From Thalassospira povalilytica (GTDB lineage Bacteria > Pseudomonadota > Alphaproteobacteria > Rhodospirillales > Thalassospiraceae): a DNA stretch of 64,000 nt. The stretch covers positions 248,001 through 312,000 of the forward strand of contig NZ_PGTS01000004.1 in assembly GCF_002844235.1 (NCBI RefSeq). Direction: 5' to 3'. The first letter of the stretch is position 1; every line of letters starts with the position of its first letter. Position numbers and translations under genes: made by a program. The notes under the pieces were generated by a model, which was not told the DNA's origin, ran no database searches, and was given only the letters and a program-made list of their open reading frames with translations. Of the stretch, positions 50,714-60,601 are shown piece by piece.

Positions 50714-50730
50714 ATGTTGCCTTGCAACAT
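50714..50730. promoter_or_regulatory. Inverted repeat ATGTTGC-CTT-GCAACAT before the first receptor gene
   Basis: A perfect 7-3-7 inverted repeat about 86 bases before the ATG of the first receptor fusion. A near-identical copy lies before the second receptor gene (52701-52717), and a related repeat lies before the SDR gene (58163-58181). Operator function is inferred from position and repetition. Confidence 0.5.
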
Positions 50731-50816: not shown

Positions 50817-52586
50817 ATGGAACAAACCGTCTTTTCGGCAGATCAGGCCGCCGATGACGCGCGCAATGGTGGTGCATCCGAAGCACAGATCAGGGATCTG
50901 ATGCGCGGCATTTCAGCTGCCCTTGATTACATTCAGCATCTTCTGGAATTTGCCAATACGGCCGGCGAAAGCCAGGACAGCCTGATGCGCGAGATTGATG
51001 TGCGATCAAACAATTTGCGGGCCGGGCTTGATGAAACCCGCCGTGAAATTGCCAACAGCACCGACGTTGCCCACGAAGTTCAAAACACCACCCGATCAAC
51101 CGTTGCCAGCAAGACCGACGCCATCCGCACCGATCTTGAACGCATCAGCGCCGAACTTGAAACCAAGGCCGAAGGCGCCAACAAGGTTCTGGGCGCGATC
51201 GAGGATATCGGCAAGGGCATCAAACTTCTGGCGCTCAATGCTGCCATCGAAGCGGCCCGGGCCGGGGATCACGGGCGGGGCTTTGCCGTTGTCGCCAAGG
51301 AAGTCGGCAATCTGGCCCAAAGCACCATGCAACGCACCAACGAGGCAGTCGATCTGATTGACCTGTCGGAAGTCACACAGGCACTGCGCAAAAGCATGGC
51401 CAATATCGGCAGCGACCTTGACAGTCTGGGCAGCGAGATCGAAGCATCCCTTGCCACGCTTCAGGAACGGTTTGCCAATATGTCCGAACGGCTTTCGGAC
51501 ATTTCCGAACATAACCAGGTGGTGTTTGAATTGCTGTCAGGCAGCAAGGATGCATCGGCCCGCACCCGCAACAAGGTGACCTGGGCGCGGACCGATACCA
51601 GAACACTGGCCACCACATTGGCCGATGCCGGAACAGCCCAGCAAAAACTTGCAGGCTTTTTGAAAACCAACCACCTGCATGATGACCCAACCTTTGACCG
51701 GCTGGCTGATATCAAGGCGCGCGGTAAAATCCGCATTGCCATCGAACCGGCCTTTGTCGGGTTGTCATTCCGCCTTAGACCCGGGGATCCGTTGCGCGGA
51801 CTGGATGCGGACTATGCGCGCGCACTGGCAAAATGGCTTGGTGTGGAATGTGAATTTGTTGAACATCCTTGGGATTTGCTGACCGAACTTCTGTTTGTCG
51901 GCACCAAACCGGGCAGCCCCACCGCCGATGTGGTCTGGAGCGCCCTGCCACCAAGTGAGTTTTACAAAGGTGTCGCCTATTCGGATACTTATACCTATCT
52001 GAATTTTGCGCTATGTCGCCGGGCTGCCAATAGCAGCATCAACCGCCTCGCCGATCTTGATGGCAAGGTTCTTGGCATCATCAATGATCCGGTGGCCTTT
52101 ACCGTCCTTGAAGAACAGGGGCTTCGCTGGGCAGGAAATGAAAACAAGCCCGGCGGTATCGCCAGATTGTCCAATCTGATCGCCTATAGCGACCAGACCC
52201 GCCTGCATGATGCCCTGGCCGACGGGGCCGTTGATGCCTTTGCGGTGGATCAGCCGATTTTCCACTGGGCGGCCAACAACCCCGAAAGCCCCTGGCACGG
52301 CCGGATCGAAGTTCTGCCGGGCAATATCCTGCCCTTGCCTTACTATTATACCGCGGCGGTCGCGGCCGATCCGTCATCATATAACCTGCTTGCCGCGATC
52401 AATGAATTCATCGCCGGGTTCCGCCCCACTCCGGAACGGGCCGCCATTGAAAAACTGTGGCAGGGACAGGCCATCAATCATCATCTGACCTACAAGGATG
52501 AAGCGGGCAATCTGATCGGCGCGGACGAACTTGAAACGCTTTATCACGCCCATTGCCGCAAACACGGCATCCGGATTGACGCATAA
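50817..52586 (+). CDS. Soluble chemoreceptor-tip / solute-binding domain fusion protein, first paralogue
   Basis: A 589-residue protein. Residues 25-240 are helical and carry the chemoreceptor signalling tip: [19 protein letters not shown] (136-153), then [17 protein letters not shown] (154-170). Residues about 295-560 match the family 3 periplasmic solute-binding fold ([42 protein letters not shown]). There is no signal peptide, no transmembrane helix and no HAMP domain, so the binding domain should lie in the cytoplasm. The Arg that grips amino-acid carboxylates in this fold is not apparent at [11 protein letters not shown]. It probably couples to CheW/CheA and senses an internal metabolite (inference). 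ATG 50817 is chosen over 50793 for the GAGG site. Confidence 0.85.
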
Positions 52587-52593
52587 GGCAACA

Positions 52594-52639
52594 TGATCAC
52601 GGCATCGCCGGGCGTTCAGTCCGGACGATGCCGTGATCA
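52594..52639. repeat. Long inverted repeat between the two receptor genes
   Basis: TGATCACGGCATCG (52594-52607) pairs perfectly with CGATGCCGTGATCA (52626-52639); the loop contains a second CCGG/CCGG pairing. It begins seven bases after the stop of the first receptor gene. No T run follows, so it may act as an mRNA-stability or processing hairpin rather than a classical terminator. Confidence 0.65.
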
Positions 52640-52700
52640 ACCCGCAACACCCCCAAAACAGATCACCACCGTCACAGATCCTGTTTCGCAAATTCATAAT

Positions 52701-52717
52701 ATGCTGCCTTGCAACAT
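52701..52717. promoter_or_regulatory. Inverted repeat ATGCTGC-CTT-GCAACAT before the second receptor gene
   Basis: Differs at one position from the repeat at 50714-50730 and stands at a similar distance (75 bases) from the start codon. The shared part includes the ten bases CTTGCAACAT. Confidence 0.5.
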
Positions 52718-52770
52718 AACTCGCCCGACGGTAGTGTTTCCCTAAAAGAAATAATTATTCCTAATTCAAC

Positions 52771-52787
52771 GGGTAGTGGTGAGGCTT
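52771..52787 (+). promoter_or_regulatory. Conserved leader and ribosome site of the receptor genes (second copy)
   Basis: GGGTAGTGGTGAGGCTT, five bases before the ATG at 52793, matches 50795-50811 except for one base. Confidence 0.5.
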
Positions 52788-52792
52788 GAAGT

Positions 52793-54628
52793 ATGGAAGA
52801 GACCATTCTGGCACCGCGTGATGACAGCATCACGCAAGATGATCACGTTTCGACACCCCAACAACATGATGCATCCGGCTTGGCAAAGGATGCAGAAACC
52901 GAAGAAAAATCCACGGCAAGTTCAAATGATCTTGCCCCGCTGATGCGCGGGATATCTTCGGCACTGGATTATATCGAACATCTTTTGACATTCGCCAATA
53001 CGGCGGGCGAAAGCCAGGACAGCCTGATGCGCGAAATTGATGTCCGGTCCAATAACCTTCGTACCGGCCTTGATCAGACCAAACGCGAAATTGACGAAAG
53101 TACCGCGACCGCCAGCACGGTTCAGGATGCCACCCGCACCACCGTTTCATCCAAGACCGATGCCATTCGAAGCGACCTTGAAAAGATCAGCCAGGACCTT
53201 GAAACCAAGGCCGAAGGTGCAACCAAGGTGCTGAGTGCGATCGAAGATATCGGCAAGGGCATCAAGCTTTTGGCGCTCAATGCCACGATCGAGGCGGCAC
53301 GCGCTGGCGAACACGGGCGCGGTTTCGCCGTCGTCGCCAAGGAAGTCGGCAATCTGGCCCAAAGCACCATGCAGCGCACCAACGAGGCGGTCGATCTGAT
53401 TGACCTGTCTGACGTAACCCGGTCCTTGCGCGAAAGCATGGCAAATATCGGAAGCGACCTTGACAGTCTTGGCAGCGAAATCGAAGAAGCCCTTGGCGGG
53501 CTTAAGGATCGTTTTGCTGCGATGTCGGGGCGCCTTGACCATATCAGCGGCCATAATCAGGTTGTTTTTGAACTGCTTGATGCCAGCAAGGAATCATCGG
53601 CACGCACCCGCAGCAAGGTTTCCTGGGCCACCGGCGAAATTGGCAACCTGTCGGCCTGCACCACCGAGGACGCCGCGACCAGCGCCAAGCTTTCGCAGTT
53701 TTTGCGCAGCAATCATATCCATGATGACCCGGCCTATGACCGGCTGGCAGATATCAAGTCACGTGGCAAAATCCGGATTGCGATTGATCCGGCATTGGTC
53801 GGCGCATCATTCCGCCCCCAAAAGAACGGCCCGCTGCACGGCATTGATATCGACTATGCCCACGCCTTTGCCAAATCGATCGGCGTTGCCTGCGAATTTG
53901 TCGAACATCCCTGGGATTTGCTGACCGAATTGCTGTTTGCCGGCAAAAAGGCCGGGCAACCGCCCGCCGATGTTGTGTGGTGTGCATTGCCACCGAGCGA
54001 CTTTTACAAGGGTGTCGCCTTTTCAGATACCTACACCTATCTTAACTTTTCGCTGATCCGGCGTCCGGAAAACACATCGATCAATACAATCGCCGACCTC
54101 GAAGGCAAGGTTCTTGGAACGGTCAATGACCCGGCCGCCCTTGCGGTTCTTGAAGATGTCGGATTGCGCTGGGCCGATAATGAAAACAAGCCCGGCGGCA
54201 TTGCCAAACTGTCGAACATGATTGCCTATGGCGATATTTCGCGGGTTCATGATGCGGTTGCGACCGGTGCGATTGATGCCTTTGCAGGCGACCATCCGGT
54301 CTTTCACTGGGCATCAAGCAACCCGCAAAGCCCGTGGCACGGGCGGCTTGAAGTCCTGCCCAAACCGATCCTGCCCCATCCGTTCTTCTATGTCGCGGCC
54401 GTCGCGGCCGACCCGGCTTCCTATACGCTGTTATGCGCGATCAATGATTTCATTGCCCGGTTCCGCACCACCCCGGAACGGGCCGCGATTGAAAAGCTGT
54501 GGCAGGGTGAGGCCATAAATCATCACCTGACCTACAAGGACGAAGCCGGCAATCTGATCGGGGCCGACGAACTTGCCAACAGCTATCAGGCCCATTGTCG
54601 GAAATTCAACATCGATCCGGCGAAATAA
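52793..54628 (+). CDS. Soluble chemoreceptor-tip / solute-binding domain fusion protein, second paralogue
   Basis: A 611-residue tandem paralogue of the preceding gene, similar along its whole length apart from the first 45 residues, which are a longer acidic tail. The signalling tip is [19 protein letters not shown] (about 157-175) followed by [17 protein letters not shown]. It differs from its partner by Thr for Ala in ALNA(T/A)IEAARAG. The solute-binding domain (about 315-580) keeps the same odd PPSDFYKG segment. No signal peptide or membrane span. Sequence differences concentrate in the binding domain and N-terminus, suggesting different ligands. A hairpin immediately follows, then the DeoR gene. 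Confidence 0.85.
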
Positions 54629-54687: not shown

Positions 54688-55452
54688 ATGGCAACAAACA
54701 AAAAATCCCTGCGACAACAACGCATTCTGCGTGAACTTGACCATGAACCGTCCCTGCGGATCATTGATCTGGCAGACCGTCTTTCCGTGTCGACAGAAAC
54801 CATCCGGCGCGACTTTGACGAACTGACCCAACAGGGATTGATCAACCGCACCTATGGCGGGGCGGTGCGTCGCCAGTCAAGCGAGCCGGGACTTAATGAA
54901 CGCCACAAACTTCATATCGCCGAACGTGAACTGATTGCCCGCCACGCCATGCCTGTACTGGCCGGGACCCGCCATATCATGATCGGATCGGGTGCGACCA
55001 CGGTCCATGTTGCCAAACGGTTGGCCGTAACCATGAATGACCTGACAGTCATCACCCATTCATTCGGGGTGGCAACGGTTCTTGCCATCAACCCGACCAT
55101 CCGGGTCATCATGGCACCGGGCCTTTATCACGCCCAGGAAGGCGCGATGCATGGTGCGCAAACCATCCGTTTTCTTGAAAATTATCGGGTGGAATGGGCG
55201 ATCCTTGGCGCCAGCGGCCTTGATGAAGATGGCGCAAGCGACGCCCTGATCGAAGCATCCGAAGTCTATGCCGTCATGATGGAACGGGCGACACGGTCCA
55301 TGATCGTTGCCGACCATACCAAATTCAATCAGGCCTTCCCGGCGCGCTATTGCGACTGGGGAAATGTCGATATCCTGATCAGTGATCAGACACCACCCGG
55401 ATCCCTTGGCGATACCATCCGCGATACCGGTTGCCTGATCAAGGCCGGCTGA
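54688..55452 (+). CDS. DeoR/GlpR-family transcriptional regulator
   Basis: A 254-residue repressor-type regulator. The N-terminal winged helix shows RQQRILRELDHEPSLRIIDLADRLSVSTETIRRDFDEL (in parts from about 8), the DeoR signature. The C-terminal effector-binding sugar-isomerase-like domain (about 85-240) has GSGATTVHVAKRL, ILGASGLDEDGA and the ADHTKFNQAFPAR stretch. Effectors of this family are usually phosphorylated metabolites. It is convergent with the lyase-kinase operon and downstream of the receptor genes, and may control them. No Shine-Dalgarno sequence precedes the ATG. Confidence 0.92.
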   Translation: MATNKKSLRQQRILRELDHEPSLRIIDLADRLSVSTETIRRDFDELTQQGLINRTYGGAVRRQSSEPGLNERHKLHIAERELIARHAMPVLAGTRHIMIGSGATTVHVAKRLAVTMNDLTVITHSFGVATVLAINPTIRVIMAPGLYHAQEGAMHGAQTIRFLENYRVEWAILGASGLDEDGASDALIEASEVYAVMMERATRSMIVADHTKFNQAFPARYCDWGNVDILISDQTPPGSLGDTIRDTGCLIKAG

Positions 55453-55501: not shown

Positions 55502-56836
55502 CTAACCACAAGCACGCAGGGATTTTCCAAGCGCCTCGATAAAGAAATCGACTTCTGATCGTTTCAGGCACAGGGGTGGGCGAATTTTCAAGGTTTGCCC
55601 GTATTTTCCCGCCGCTCCGATCAGAACACGGTGACGGCGCATGGCATTGATGACATCGCCCACCAGTTGACCGCTTGGTCGGGTCGGGTCACCGTCTTCT
55701 GACAGATCCACCCCCAAAAACAGCCCCGCCCCGCGTATATCACTGATCCGGCCATCCAGTTCGGCCAGATGCTGCAACCCTTCACGCAAATAGGCCCCGC
55801 AAACCGCGGCATTGTTCTGAAGATTTTCATCACGGATGACATCAAGCACCGCAAGACCCGTGGCCGCGGCAACCGGGCTTGCGGCAAAGGTGTTGAAATA
55901 GCCGACATCCTCGCAAAATGCGGCCAGCATTTCGGGCCGTACCGCGATCCCGGCCATCGGAAAACCATTGCCCATCGGTTTGCCCATGCTGACGATATCA
56001 GGGACGACGTCATGACGCGCAAATCCCCAAAACGCATCCCCGGTCCGGGCAAATCCGGGCTGGACCTCATCGGCGATGAACACACCGCCTGCACGGCGAA
56101 TAACCGCAACAGCCAGTCGGAAGAACCCCTTGGGATTGGAAAAGACCCCGTCACTTGAAAAGATGCTGTCGACAATCAGGGCCGCCACCCCGTGCCCGCG
56201 CTCTTTCAAGGTGATCGCAGCCGAATGCACCGCATCAGCAAACCCGGCGGCAATATTGTCGCCATAGGCATGCTTGCCCGGTGGTGCGATGGCAATCACG
56301 TGATCGGGCAAAACACCACGTTTGACTGCCGATGGCGATATCTCGGTCACAGCCGCCGTATTCCCGTGATAGGCACTTTCCGTCACGATGATGCCACGCG
56401 CCTTGGCCGCACGTTGCGCAATCCGGATGGCAAGATCGTTGGCCTCGCTACCGCTACAGGTCAGGACAATGTTTTCCAGATGGTCCGGAAATGTCGCCTT
56501 AAGGCGATCAAGATAGGTTTCAACTGTCTGATGCAGATAACGACTGTTGATATTCAGCCGGGCGGCCTGATTGGCCATGGCACTGACCACTTTTGGATGG
56601 CAATGCCCGACTGACGGCACATTGTTATAAAAATCGAGATAGTTGGTGCCATCGGCCGCTGTCATCCAGCACCCCGATGCCGACACCATTTCGATCGGGT
56701 CGCGATAAAACAGTACGGAGGCCGCCCCGACATTGCGCAACCGGCGCCCCAAAAGATCGCTTTGGGGGCTGTCTTTTTTCTGCGGGCCATGATTGTCAAA
56801 GGCATTCATATCCAGAATGGGGCGCGCCTTGGTCAT
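55502..56836 (-). CDS. Class III PLP enzyme, probable phospho-lyase (AGXT2L-like)
   Basis: A 444-residue class III aminotransferase-fold enzyme. The PLP Lys is in VSMGKPMGNG; VFIADEVQPGFARTG is the cofactor-binding Asp block. The signature NNVPSVGHCHPKVVSAM and LNINSRYLHQTVETYL is the style of AGXT2L1 (ethanolamine-phosphate phospho-lyase) and AGXT2L2 (5-phosphohydroxylysine phospho-lyase), as is YFNTFAASPVAAATGLAVL. These release ammonia and phosphate rather than transfer an amino group. The pairing with an overlapping kinase gene fits a kinase-then-lyase route. ATG 56836 is used; the frame extends to 56995 inside the kinase gene. True transamination is not excluded. Confidence 0.85.
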   Translation of the reverse strand: MTKARPILDMNAFDNHGPQKKDSPQSDLLGRRLRNVGAASVLFYRDPIEMVSASGCWMTAADGTNYLDFYNNVPSVGHCHPKVVSAMANQAARLNINSRYLHQTVETYLDRLKATFPDHLENIVLTCSGSEANDLAIRIAQRAAKARGIIVTESAYHGNTAAVTEISPSAVKRGVLPDHVIAIAPPGKHAYGDNIAAGFADAVHSAAITLKERGHGVAALIVDSIFSSDGVFSNPKGFFRLAVAVIRRAGGVFIADEVQPGFARTGDAFWGFARHDVVPDIVSMGKPMGNGFPMAGIAVRPEMLAAFCEDVGYFNTFAASPVAAATGLAVLDVIRDENLQNNAAVCGAYLREGLQHLAELDGRISDIRGAGLFLGVDLSEDGDPTRPSGQLVGDVINAMRRHRVLIGAAGKYGQTLKIRPPLCLKRSEVDFFIEALGKSLRACG

Positions 56837-57834
56837 TACGCCCCCTCTGCCGCAAGATAGCTTTGCGCCATGGCGATGGTGCCGTCGGTAAAACCGGTTC
56901 CCATTTCCCGGGCGGTCGGCGTTTCGGGATGGCTGGCAATCCAGGCCGTCAGCAACAACCGTCTGAGCATCACAAAACTGTCGAGCATCGCACAATCGGC
57001 ATCGGAAAACGGCGCAATCGTGCGATATCCCTCTATCCAGGCTTCCTTAAGCGCCGGCACAATCGGGTCCAGTTCGATAAAGCTGATGGCCGCGGCAAAG
57101 TCATAGCCAAACCAGCCAAATCCGCAGTCATCAAAATCAATAACGCCAAGCCGGTCCCCATCGACCAGAAGATTGGCCAGTCGCAGATCGGCATGGATCA
57201 GACCAAACCGGTCATTGCCCATACCAAACGTCACAAGCTTCTGATCCAGATGCTGGCAAACGCGCGTCAGCACCGCCAAACCGGTCGCATCAAGACCCGG
57301 TGCAGCACGCCAGTCCCCCCAATGCGGGGTCGCGCCAAGGGTCGTGTCAAAGGTCCAGCTTTTGCGCACAAAATTGACCGACCGTGCCCATTGCCGCGCA
57401 TGCCCGTGCAGGCGCGCACTGATCGCGCCCAGCTTGAAAAAACCATCCACCAGCGCATCATCCGCAGATGGTTCATCGCCTTGCATGAAATCAAAAGCAA
57501 CAACATGGCGACCAACCCCTTCCTGATCGAACTCGGCAACCAGTGATCCGTCACTGCGCATGCGCGGCTTGGGTGTGTCGACCACCTCGGCAGCGCGAAG
57601 CGCATTGATCCAGGCCAGCTCAGACTCGATTTCAGACCGTGTATGATATCCGGGGCGATGAACCCGCAAAATCAGCCGTGCGTCCGTTTTCGGGTCTGTC
57701 GCCAGAAACGTTGCATTCTCTGACACGGTCAAAAGCCTGACATCGGCATCAGCCCCCATGCCCCACCCCGGCAGAACCGAAATCGCACCGTCACGCAGGC
57801 GGCCAATCAGTTCGTCATCATATATTCCGCCCAA
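56836..57834 (-). CDS. APH-fold small-molecule kinase (hydroxylysine kinase-like)
   Basis: A 332-residue aminoglycoside phosphotransferase-fold kinase. Catalytic residues are in HADLRLANLLVD (about 214-225, HxDxxxxN) and the metal-binding IDFDDCGFGWFGYDFA (about 230-245). The N-lobe has ILRVHRPGYHTRSEIESELAW. Such kinases phosphorylate amino alcohols, hydroxylysine, choline or homoserine. The stop shares a base with the start of the PLP enzyme gene, so they are translated as a pair, consistent with making the substrate for the phospho-lyase. The ATG at 57834 is divergent from the SDR gene. Confidence 0.85.
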   Translation of the reverse strand: MGGIYDDELIGRLRDGAISVLPGWGMGADADVRLLTVSENATFLATDPKTDARLILRVHRPGYHTRSEIESELAWINALRAAEVVDTPKPRMRSDGSLVAEFDQEGVGRHVVAFDFMQGDEPSADDALVDGFFKLGAISARLHGHARQWARSVNFVRKSWTFDTTLGATPHWGDWRAAPGLDATGLAVLTRVCQHLDQKLVTFGMGNDRFGLIHADLRLANLLVDGDRLGVIDFDDCGFGWFGYDFAAAISFIELDPIVPALKEAWIEGYRTIAPFSDADCAMLDSFVMLRRLLLTAWIASHPETPTAREMGTGFTDGTIAMAQSYLAAEGA

Positions 57835-58296: not shown

Positions 58297-59076
58297 ATGC
58301 TGACTTCAATTTCGGGAAAAACTGTCATCGTCACGGGTGGCTCCAAAGGGATCGGCAAGGGCATCGCCAACGTCTTTGCCAAACAGGGGGCCAAAGTCAT
58401 GATTGCGGCCCGCACAGAAAAGGATGCGGCCATCGCAGTTGGCGAAATCACGGGTGCTGGCGGGACGGCCGATATGGTTTTGTGTGATGTGTCGGACTGG
58501 GATCAGGTCGCCGGGATGGCGGAATATACTGCCAAGACGTTTGGCGGCATTGATATCCTGTGCGCCAATGCCGGAATTTTCCCGCAAGTCAAAATGATCG
58601 ATATGACGGCAGATGACTGGGACCAGATCATGACCACCAACCTTAAAAGCAGCTTTCTGTGCGTTAAGGCCTGCATCCCCTATTTTGAAAAAGCCGGCAA
58701 GGGACGGGTTGTGATTACCTCATCGATCACAGGCCCCGTAACCGGTTATCCCGGCTGGTCGCATTATGGTGCGTCCAAGGCCGGACAACTTGGCTTTATC
58801 CGCACCGCGGCAATGGAACTGTCGCGCTATAACACGACGATCAATGCCGTCATGCCCGGCAATATCATGACCGAAGGCCTTGCCGACCTTGGTCAGGACT
58901 ATCTGGATTCAATGGCCAGTTCGATCCCGCTCAAACGTCTGGGCAGCGTCGAAGACATCGCCAATGCGGCCCTGTTCTTTGCCTCGGACGAAGCGGCCTA
59001 TATCACCGGGCAATCCATCGTCGTTGACGGCGGCCAAATCCTTCCGGAATCGCTTGATGCCTTGGGCGAGATTTAA
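58297..59076 (+). CDS. SDR-family oxidoreductase (short-chain dehydrogenase)
   Basis: A 259-residue short-chain dehydrogenase/reductase of the FabG-like classical type. The cofactor motif is VTGGSKGIGKG (about 11-21), with NAG at ILCANAGIF. The catalytic Ser lies in VITSSITG and Tyr-x3-Lys in HYGASKAG. The C-terminus is GQSIVVDGGQILPES. It probably uses NAD(P) to oxidise an alcohol or reduce a ketone, for example the product of the neighbouring kinase-lyase route (inference). AAAGGA about nine bases before the ATG is the ribosome site. Confidence 0.9.
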   Translation: MLTSISGKTVIVTGGSKGIGKGIANVFAKQGAKVMIAARTEKDAAIAVGEITGAGGTADMVLCDVSDWDQVAGMAEYTAKTFGGIDILCANAGIFPQVKMIDMTADDWDQIMTTNLKSSFLCVKACIPYFEKAGKGRVVITSSITGPVTGYPGWSHYGASKAGQLGFIRTAAMELSRYNTTINAVMPGNIMTEGLADLGQDYLDSMASSIPLKRLGSVEDIANAALFFASDEAAYITGQSIVVDGGQILPESLDALGEI

Positions 59077-59897: not shown

Positions 59898-60437
59898 TCA
59901 GATATCATGCAATCCATACTGGCTGCGCACCACGCCGGAATTATAGCGTTCTGATGCCAGCAACCGTGGCTTGATGCCACCGGCGTCACGCCCGAACAAT
60001 GATATGCCGTCCCCCAGAACTTCGGGGATCGTAAAGATATCCAGCTGATCGGCAAAGCCGCCAAACAGGAACTGTGTGACCACACTTCCGCCGCCAACAA
60101 CCCAGATGTCGCCATCGCCATTGCGGCTGTCGCGAAGCTGATCGACAAGTTCGATAATGCTGCCGCCATAGGCCTCGGTATTGGCCGGACGGTCTTGCGG
60201 AAGATCGCGTGATGTCAGAACGATGGTGCGGCGGGCCTCATAGGGCCAATCGCCAAATTCCATCACCTGATCAAAGGTGTTTCTGCCAATGATCAGCGTG
60301 CCTACGGAGTCCAGAAAATCATCAAAGCCGAATTCGGCCGGATCATATTCATCCAGCCAATCCACCGCACCATTGGTGCGCGCAATGAAGCCATCCAGAC
60401 TGACCGCGATGTAAATGCGGAACAGCTTTTTGCTCAT
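59898..60437 (-). CDS. Dihydrofolate reductase-fold (RibD C-terminal) protein
   Basis: A 179-residue protein with the DHFR/RibD C-terminal fold: FRIYIAVSLDGFIART (about 5-20), GTLIIGRNTFDQVMEFG, TIVLTSRDLPQ and DIWVVGGGSVVTQFL (NADPH-binding GGG). These stand-alone proteins reduce unknown substrates; genuine folate activity is doubtful. ATG 60437 replaces the TTG at 60449. Convergent with the lipoprotein gene. Confidence 0.87.
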   Translation of the reverse strand: MSKKLFRIYIAVSLDGFIARTNGAVDWLDEYDPAEFGFDDFLDSVGTLIIGRNTFDQVMEFGDWPYEARRTIVLTSRDLPQDRPANTEAYGGSIIELVDQLRDSRNGDGDIWVVGGGSVVTQFLFGGFADQLDIFTIPEVLGDGISLFGRDAGGIKPRLLASERYNSGVVRSQYGLHDI

Positions 60438-60601
60438 GTCTAGGTCCAACCTTTGGTGGGGTCTTTGCCCCTTGTTTGCTCGCGCAGATCATAACAGATC
60501 CCAAACCAAAGGTCGCAAGAAACACATTTCACCAACCGCCGGTGAAATGACTGTATCACCCAAAACGTTGATTTAAATCGCGTTTCATCAATGTTGTAAC
60601 A

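Follow-up and report, generated by a model that had tools for sequence, protein, structure and literature searches.

Can a solute-binding domain of the periplasmic type act as the sensor of a chemoreceptor that lies in the cytosol and, if so, what would such a receptor sense? The question is posed by two neighbouring genes of Thalassospira povalilytica, A and B, which lie on the forward strand at 50817..52586 (589 residues) and 52793..54628 (611 residues) of a 64,000-nucleotide stretch of DNA (contig NZ_PGTS01000004.1, positions 248,001 to 312,000), hereafter the window. Gene A encodes a cytosolic chemoreceptor with a C-terminal solute-binding domain, and gene B its paralogue. The distribution of their relatives suggests, from the genomes compared here, that this receptor family tracks the catabolism of methylated amines, and this is the new result of the present analysis. 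We see almost an even chance that the two proteins are cytosolic sensors of methylamines or of glutamyl intermediates, coupled to metabolism and signalling to CheA.

Two soluble receptors with a C-terminal solute-binding domain

The original prediction, made from the DNA letters only, described two adjacent paralogues of 589 and 611 residues, each joining a chemoreceptor tip to a family 3 solute-binding domain without a signal peptide or transmembrane helix, and these statements have held up well. Both open reading frames are present, and their proteins are 73% identical. The methyl-accepting chemotaxis protein (MCP) signalling domain is N-terminal and the solute-binding protein (SBP) domain C-terminal in both: PF00015 matches residues 113-232 of A (51153..51512, E 5.8e-24) and 130-252 of B (53180..53548, E 1.4e-23), and SBP_bac_3 (PF00497) matches residues 305-550 of A (51729..52466, E 6.4e-10) and 327-572 of B (53771..54508, E 1.7e-11), all on the forward strand and all above the Pfam curated cut-offs. 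Upstream of the start the frame stays open for 23 further codons in A and for one in B before an in-frame stop, and the highest 19-residue Kyte-Doolittle mean is 0.99 in A, 1.44 in B and at most 1.49 in the listed open frames of the relatives. Because the upstream stops are so close and no stretch reaches 1.5, these two measures reveal neither a signal peptide nor a membrane helix, be it in the two proteins or in the listed frames of their relatives, and none appears to be hidden.

The full-length AlphaFold model of A, built on a 30-row alignment (mean pLDDT 82), consists of an elongated helical half joined to an SBP fold. Its best Foldseek matches in the PDB are ornithine-, glutamine- and arginine-binding proteins (best E 2.0e-15), the leading rows having TM scores of about 0.75-0.8 by target. 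An annotation artefact, be it a mis-called start concealing a signal peptide or a C-terminal half that is not an SBP fold, would have undone the original prediction. We regard it as extremely improbable, given the in-frame stops directly upstream, the lack of any hydrophobic stretch in A, B or the listed relatives, the PF00497 matches above cut-off in both proteins and the structural matches to SBPs at E 2e-15.

The same model takes a helix straight through the tip and breaks it at residues 181-183. It is unreliable there (block mean pLDDT 63-73), and the straight tip was discarded because a model of the MCP half by itself (19 rows, mean pLDDT 86) has its break at the classical tip, residue 149, and matches hairpin structures. 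The Thermotoga chemoreceptor hairpin 2ch7 is matched over nearly its full length (TM 0.67 by query), the Tsr structures more poorly (TM 0.50-0.61); ranked by E-value, two integrative models of Bacillus receptors come first, and these have low TM scores. Both models of A show a break at 182-183, the conserved 'DLS'. With a turn at 149 the two arms would measure about 128 and 118 residues, so that the sensor is predicted to leave the hairpin at the end away from the tip.

By domain and modelled fold, A and B belong to the soluble (class IV) chemoreceptors. Judged by the usual features of SBP_bac_3 proteins, their sequences have the fold and lack both an export signal and the TxER-type arginine discussed below. 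The genome has 35 MCP-domain matches, among which B ranks 33rd and A 34th by MCPsignal score, along with one CheW frame and a frame of 912 residues that has two CheW domains and is presumed to encode CheA. With one CheW, one presumed CheA and 35 MCP matches, a single array would be the natural partner of A and B.

What has to be given up is the novelty of the domain order. The original prediction held a tip-first, sensor-last arrangement to be unusual, and in the excerpts of PMC12871147 this is already the established order in the TlpD-type (CZB) soluble receptors. These resemble A and B in being soluble, with an MCP hairpin that precedes a ligand domain at the C-terminus, and in keeping tip and sensor core across distant bacteria, a pattern thus not peculiar to the present family; they differ in their sensor, a zinc-binding CZB domain rather than an SBP fold, and TlpD of H. 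pylori has an extra N-terminal PAS domain. No CZB domain is found among the Pfam matches of A and B. The parts of the earlier reading that remain are the cytosolic tip with an SBP, the adjacent paralogues and, probably, an internal signal. Among the matches listed in the openly licensed PMC literature there was no description of a cytosolic MCP-SBP_bac_3 fusion, which is weak evidence of absence.

A scattered family and methylated-amine catabolism

A family scan with A as query and one genome per species (84,980 species) returned 22 loci, in Thalassospira, Marinomonas, Magnetospirillum, Vreelandella, Roseibium, Marinobacterium, Methylobrevis, Aquisalimonas and other genera, with Pseudomonas mangrovi also among the carriers. 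The original prediction had proposed looking for the same architecture elsewhere; by sequence it is a rare family of the same MCP-SBP fusion, scattered in alpha- and gammaproteobacteria. Its frequency is 6 of 385 genomes in the class and 7 of 398 in the phylum (the best three candidates per genome being scored), and 13 of 29 in the genus. Among the 13 genus carriers there are ten with a pair of intact matches, two with a single match and one in which A is accompanied by a split second copy; at L010 8936-10782 (T. profundimaris 35) the second copy is broken into two frames. The Methylobrevis copy (L029 6464-8310) is likewise not in a single frame, its N-terminal part being out of frame. In-frame TGA stops were suspected in the matches of genomes G577 and G037 and dismissed, as they fall only at the end of the match, the frames being open for 597 and 561 residues. 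Dropping the broken L010 copy left 31 rows; the main alignment has 30, without L029 as well, two further alignments have 19 of these 30, and the tip and identity counts given below use 13 of the 30.

The sensor domain seems to occur only in the fusion. Without an MCP domain it was not found at E 1e-20 in the 385 genomes of the window's class, nor, at E 1e-25, in 369 genomes from the class to which G577 belongs, presumably Gammaproteobacteria; the eight matches all lie in open frames of 575-664 residues and are fusions, the best six or seven candidates per genome having been scored, so that weaker single domains could escape. Carriage on plasmids was considered and set aside, as a tblastn search of 72,556 plasmid records gave nothing at E 1e-30. 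The 30-member tree places A and B in two distinct clades, both supported, and pairs B with the Marinomonas receptor (100/98); its branches are long, and only these two features of it are used. Given this pairing, A and B did not simply arise by a recent tandem duplication, and the tree makes transfer of receptor genes between genera likely. Several of the 18 carriers outside the genus are near kin (L019/L134, L022/L023 and L135/L136/L137).

Within the genus, HODM (PF11927) is present in 14 of 29 genomes, that is in 13/13 carriers and in 1/16 non-carriers (Fisher p 2e-7, a value too optimistic given kinship). In the single positive non-carrier, G404, the flanking rlmH has no match, so that this part of the genome may not have been assembled. 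An rsfS-rlmH tree of 28 genomes (without G404) shows three changes of each trait and places G387 and the pair G389/G390, which lack both the receptor and PF11927, among the carriers. Outside the genus PF11927 occurs in 8 of the 18 carriers compared with 11 of 62 non-carriers (Fisher p 0.028, uncorrected for kinship), the latter being hand-picked from several hundred, not random and often smaller genomes. The Roseibium match was not counted as pathway evidence, as no other pathway gene lies in the surrounding 19.5 kb. In the remaining seven carriers the match lies with dmm genes, joined by Tmm or Tdm in all but one. Together with two Magnetospirillum, the pathway is evident in nine of the 18.

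The association is also one of gene neighbourhood. In the flanks read around the outside loci (7-10 kb, less for L025), the receptor gene is found inside a methylated-amine cluster at five of 18 loci, in three lineages. The order in Vreelandella utahensis is DmmA-Fer2-HODM-receptor-EamA-Amt-PurU-Mgd-like, its HODM being a dimethylamine monooxygenase alpha-like protein (PF11927). In the two Magnetospirillum the receptor lies downstream of homologues of GMAS, MgsA, MgsB and MgsC, the N-methylglutamate pathway. P. mangrovi has Tmm-Tdm-PAS/MCP-Amt-receptor, with HODM and Fer2 5-6 kb away; G577, whose receptor is 62% identical to that of P. mangrovi, has a similar cluster (Tmm, Tdm, PAS-MCP and an Amt-family gene, with HODM and Fer2 again 5-6 kb away). 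The genome of the window carries Tmm (NF058570), Tdm (NF053776), homologues of HODM, Fer2 and DmmA, and PurU on another contig; on that same contig it encodes a glutamine synthetase of type III, interpreted as GMAS, along with Mgs-like proteins and sarcosine-oxidase-like ones, interpreted as Mgd. Assignment of the names GMAS, Mgs and Mgd follows homology and gene order, helped by the pathway as given in the excerpts of PMC5520151. PurU matches at L021 and L138 reach only 30-35% and were taken as ordinary formyltransferases.

Some other genes of these neighbourhoods deserve a mention. A diverged Amt-family transporter recurs at L133 10789-12153, L030 4547-5917, L024 9803-11110 and L146 18294-19580; the four are 57-73% identical to one another and stand in methylated-amine clusters with or without an adjoining receptor gene, which by sequence makes the protein a candidate amine transporter. 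Between Tdm and Amt there is a PAS-MCP gene (L030 3307-4293 and L133 12401-13384), and at L133 there is also a 4HB-MCP gene after the receptor. In Marinobacterium mangrovicola (L028 2410-6254) the receptor adjoins response-regulator, CheW, HAMP-MCP and Hpt genes, a set resembling a Pil-Chp cluster.

Ligand, signalling and the alternatives

The sensor and the tip are the conserved parts of these proteins: mean pairwise identity among 13 diverse rows is 57% for the sensor and 66% for the 45-residue tip, compared with 27-28% for the two arms. The sensor has a family-specific invariant pattern, CEF.EHPW ... NDP ... PGG. In family 3 proteins a TxER-type arginine holds the carboxylate of the ligand and an aspartate binds its amine. 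That arginine, seen in AncQR and in an ordinary SBP of the same genome found by hmmsearch, is absent from the family sensors at the aligned, variable position; D478 of A, aligned with the amine-site aspartate, is invariant in 30 rows. The family sensor thus shares with the glutamine-, ornithine- and arginine-binding proteins the two-lobed fold and the amine-site aspartate, and differs from them in having no export signal, in its fusion to an MCP domain, in the missing arginine and in its own invariant pattern.

From the architecture, the cytosolic sequence, the family, the modelled folds, the missing carboxylate arginine and the genomic association we infer a dimer, a ligand, lobe closure, an output to CheA and taxis. 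A dimeric MCP hairpin would bear the two-lobed family 3 domain at its C-terminal end, far from the tip, and this domain would work in the cytosol. Its ligand might be an amine-type compound tied to the breakdown of methylated amines, either methylamine or dimethylamine imported by the cell or an intermediate further down the pathway, for example gamma-glutamylmethylamide (GMA) or N-methylglutamate (NMG). By closing, the lobes would shift the coiled coil and so alter CheA activity through the tip, and the cell would steer by how well supplied its methylamine metabolism is. Methylamine or dimethylamine fits the loss of the carboxylate anchor, as the alignment has it; GMA or NMG suits the cytosolic location and the setting in Magnetospirillum but is at odds with the loss of the arginine. 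A fuller version, in which a periplasmic-type SBP moved to the cytosol and was recast by that loss into a sensor of methylated amines or of GMA/NMG, giving bacteria of marine and other habitats metabolism-coupled methylamine taxis through a receptor with a family-specific tip, is offered more tentatively.

There are partial precedents for such a receptor. The sensor dCache_1AM is a methylated-amine sensor derived from an amino-acid sensor (excerpts of PMC10104139), a change that A and B would parallel; its fold is dCache, and the amine ligand of A and B is suggested only by genomic association. MtpA, of Methylobacterium methylotaxis, is in the excerpts of PMC10613068 likewise a cytosolic MCP that reports on one-carbon metabolism; in it only the MCP domain is recognised, and it responds to formaldehyde and to methanol oxidation. 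No paper in the openly licensed PMC literature was found to contain both 'methyl-accepting chemotaxis' and 'dimethylamine monooxygenase'; among the matches listed there, the breakdown genes of methylated-amine cycling are known and no cytosolic sensor for it is described. If the methylamine interpretation is correct, a new sensor fold joins the repertoire of soluble chemoreceptors, a receptor family of unknown signal acquires a concrete ligand class, and chemotaxis becomes connected with marine methylated-amine cycling.

A number of observations weigh against a methylamine sensor. The genus provides only two or three independent changes, with two agreeing pairs on supported branches (sign test p 0.5), and the p of 0.028 outside it rests on hand-picked non-carriers and on carriers several of which are near kin. 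Ten of the 18 outside carriers have no PF11927 match, and in nine no pathway is seen (Roseibium, Marinomonas and G547, which is 87% similar to it, three f40 genomes, a Rhodovibrionaceae, SYSU D60014 and Aquisalimonas), the N-methylglutamate genes not having been searched genome-wide. As alpha-amino acids, GMA and NMG would presumably depend on the very arginine that is missing. The tip, moreover, lacks QTN and has G at Tsr position 404 in 7 of 13 rows, and the Thalassospira receptors themselves lie not in a methylamine cluster but in a block of DeoR, aminotransferase, APH and SDR genes. Hence the main rival, in our opinion unlikely and yet the one to be taken most seriously: a cytosolic MCP-SBP receptor for another ligand, an amino acid, a polyamine, another amine or perhaps the substrate of that block, the methylamine link reflecting shared lifestyle and gene traffic. 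The block accompanies the receptors in the ten carrier loci read and is missing there in the five non-carriers read; there are Marinomonas-type (two), f40 (three) and other genomes with no methylamine gene nearby and no PF11927; and the top structural matches bind ornithine, glutamine and arginine. Yet the aminotransferase and APH of the block have no match (E 1e-10) at the 18 outside loci, methylamine genes adjoin the receptor in three separate lineages, and the carboxylate arginine of the amino-acid binders is gone.

A different doubt concerns the output. The conserved tip of A (residues 126-170, 51192..51326, forward strand) has GIK in place of QTN. In positions that we take to correspond to the Tsr numbering, the QTN triplet (Q374-T375-N376), a usual feature of MCPs and not part of a formal family definition, is absent from the 13 family rows compared: Q is found in 0, T in 1 and N in 1 of them, whereas the corresponding counts among 29 other MCPs of the genome are 27, 28 and 26, and 24 of these MCPs have all three. 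These 29 are the ones that match the tip pattern among 33, L052, L055, L060 and L066 being unmatched. Position 388 is R in eight rows and H in five, and position 404 is G in seven and R in six, whereas all 29 others have K. Conceivably, then, the tip has left the CheA/CheW array and the protein has become a chemoreceptor-like regulator with some other output, for which the ranks of 33rd and 34th against MCPsignal could also speak; the loss of QTN is only suggestive in this respect. There is a precedent in E. coli Tls, which in the excerpts of PMC12623472 has an MCP signalling domain outside a canonical receptor and acts by sequestering FlhDC; it differs in being a truncated Trg fragment without a sensor. 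We consider such a release improbable. The hairpin is kept family-wide, as is the core of the tip (N381, E385, E402 and an acid at 391 in 13/13, V398 in 12/13), a tip identity of 66% against 27-28% for the arms suggests a conserved partner, and the gene lies near other MCP genes in P. mangrovi and G577 and near CheW and response-regulator genes in Marinobacterium. The divergent QTN site also offers a natural way of finding out which tip residues entry into the array requires.

The Thalassospira block and the upstream sites

Downstream of B the block continues with a DeoR-family regulator (54688..55452, forward strand), a class III aminotransferase of uncertain start (55502..56995, reverse strand), an APH-type phosphotransferase (56836..57834, reverse strand) and a short-chain dehydrogenase, SDR (58297..59076, forward strand). 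Together with the receptors these genes occupy the interval between rlmH and a gene at 59898-60449. The order rlmH - receptor(s) - DeoR - aminotransferase III - APH - SDR was found at all ten carrier loci read (L009-L018), while in the five of 16 non-carriers examined the genes that flank the block on its other side come next after rlmH and the block genes are absent between them.

Upstream of A lies a palindrome, TGTTGCCTTGCAACA (50715..50729, forward strand), and upstream of B a near-palindrome, TGCTGCCTTGCAACA (52702..52716, forward strand), either of which is a possible operator. That such an operator might be shared with the methylamine cluster was considered and rejected, the exact palindrome being absent from L146 and L147. 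The site TGYTGCCTTGCAACA stands 87-102 bases before the start in 20/20 upstream regions of A and B copies compared, and among 160 loci the exact word is confined to those with these genes or their upstream ends; by its sequence and position it is possibly an operator. In the window it has two exact sites, and three at no more than two mismatches compared with 0.40 expected, a number reached by 2 of 100 shuffles.

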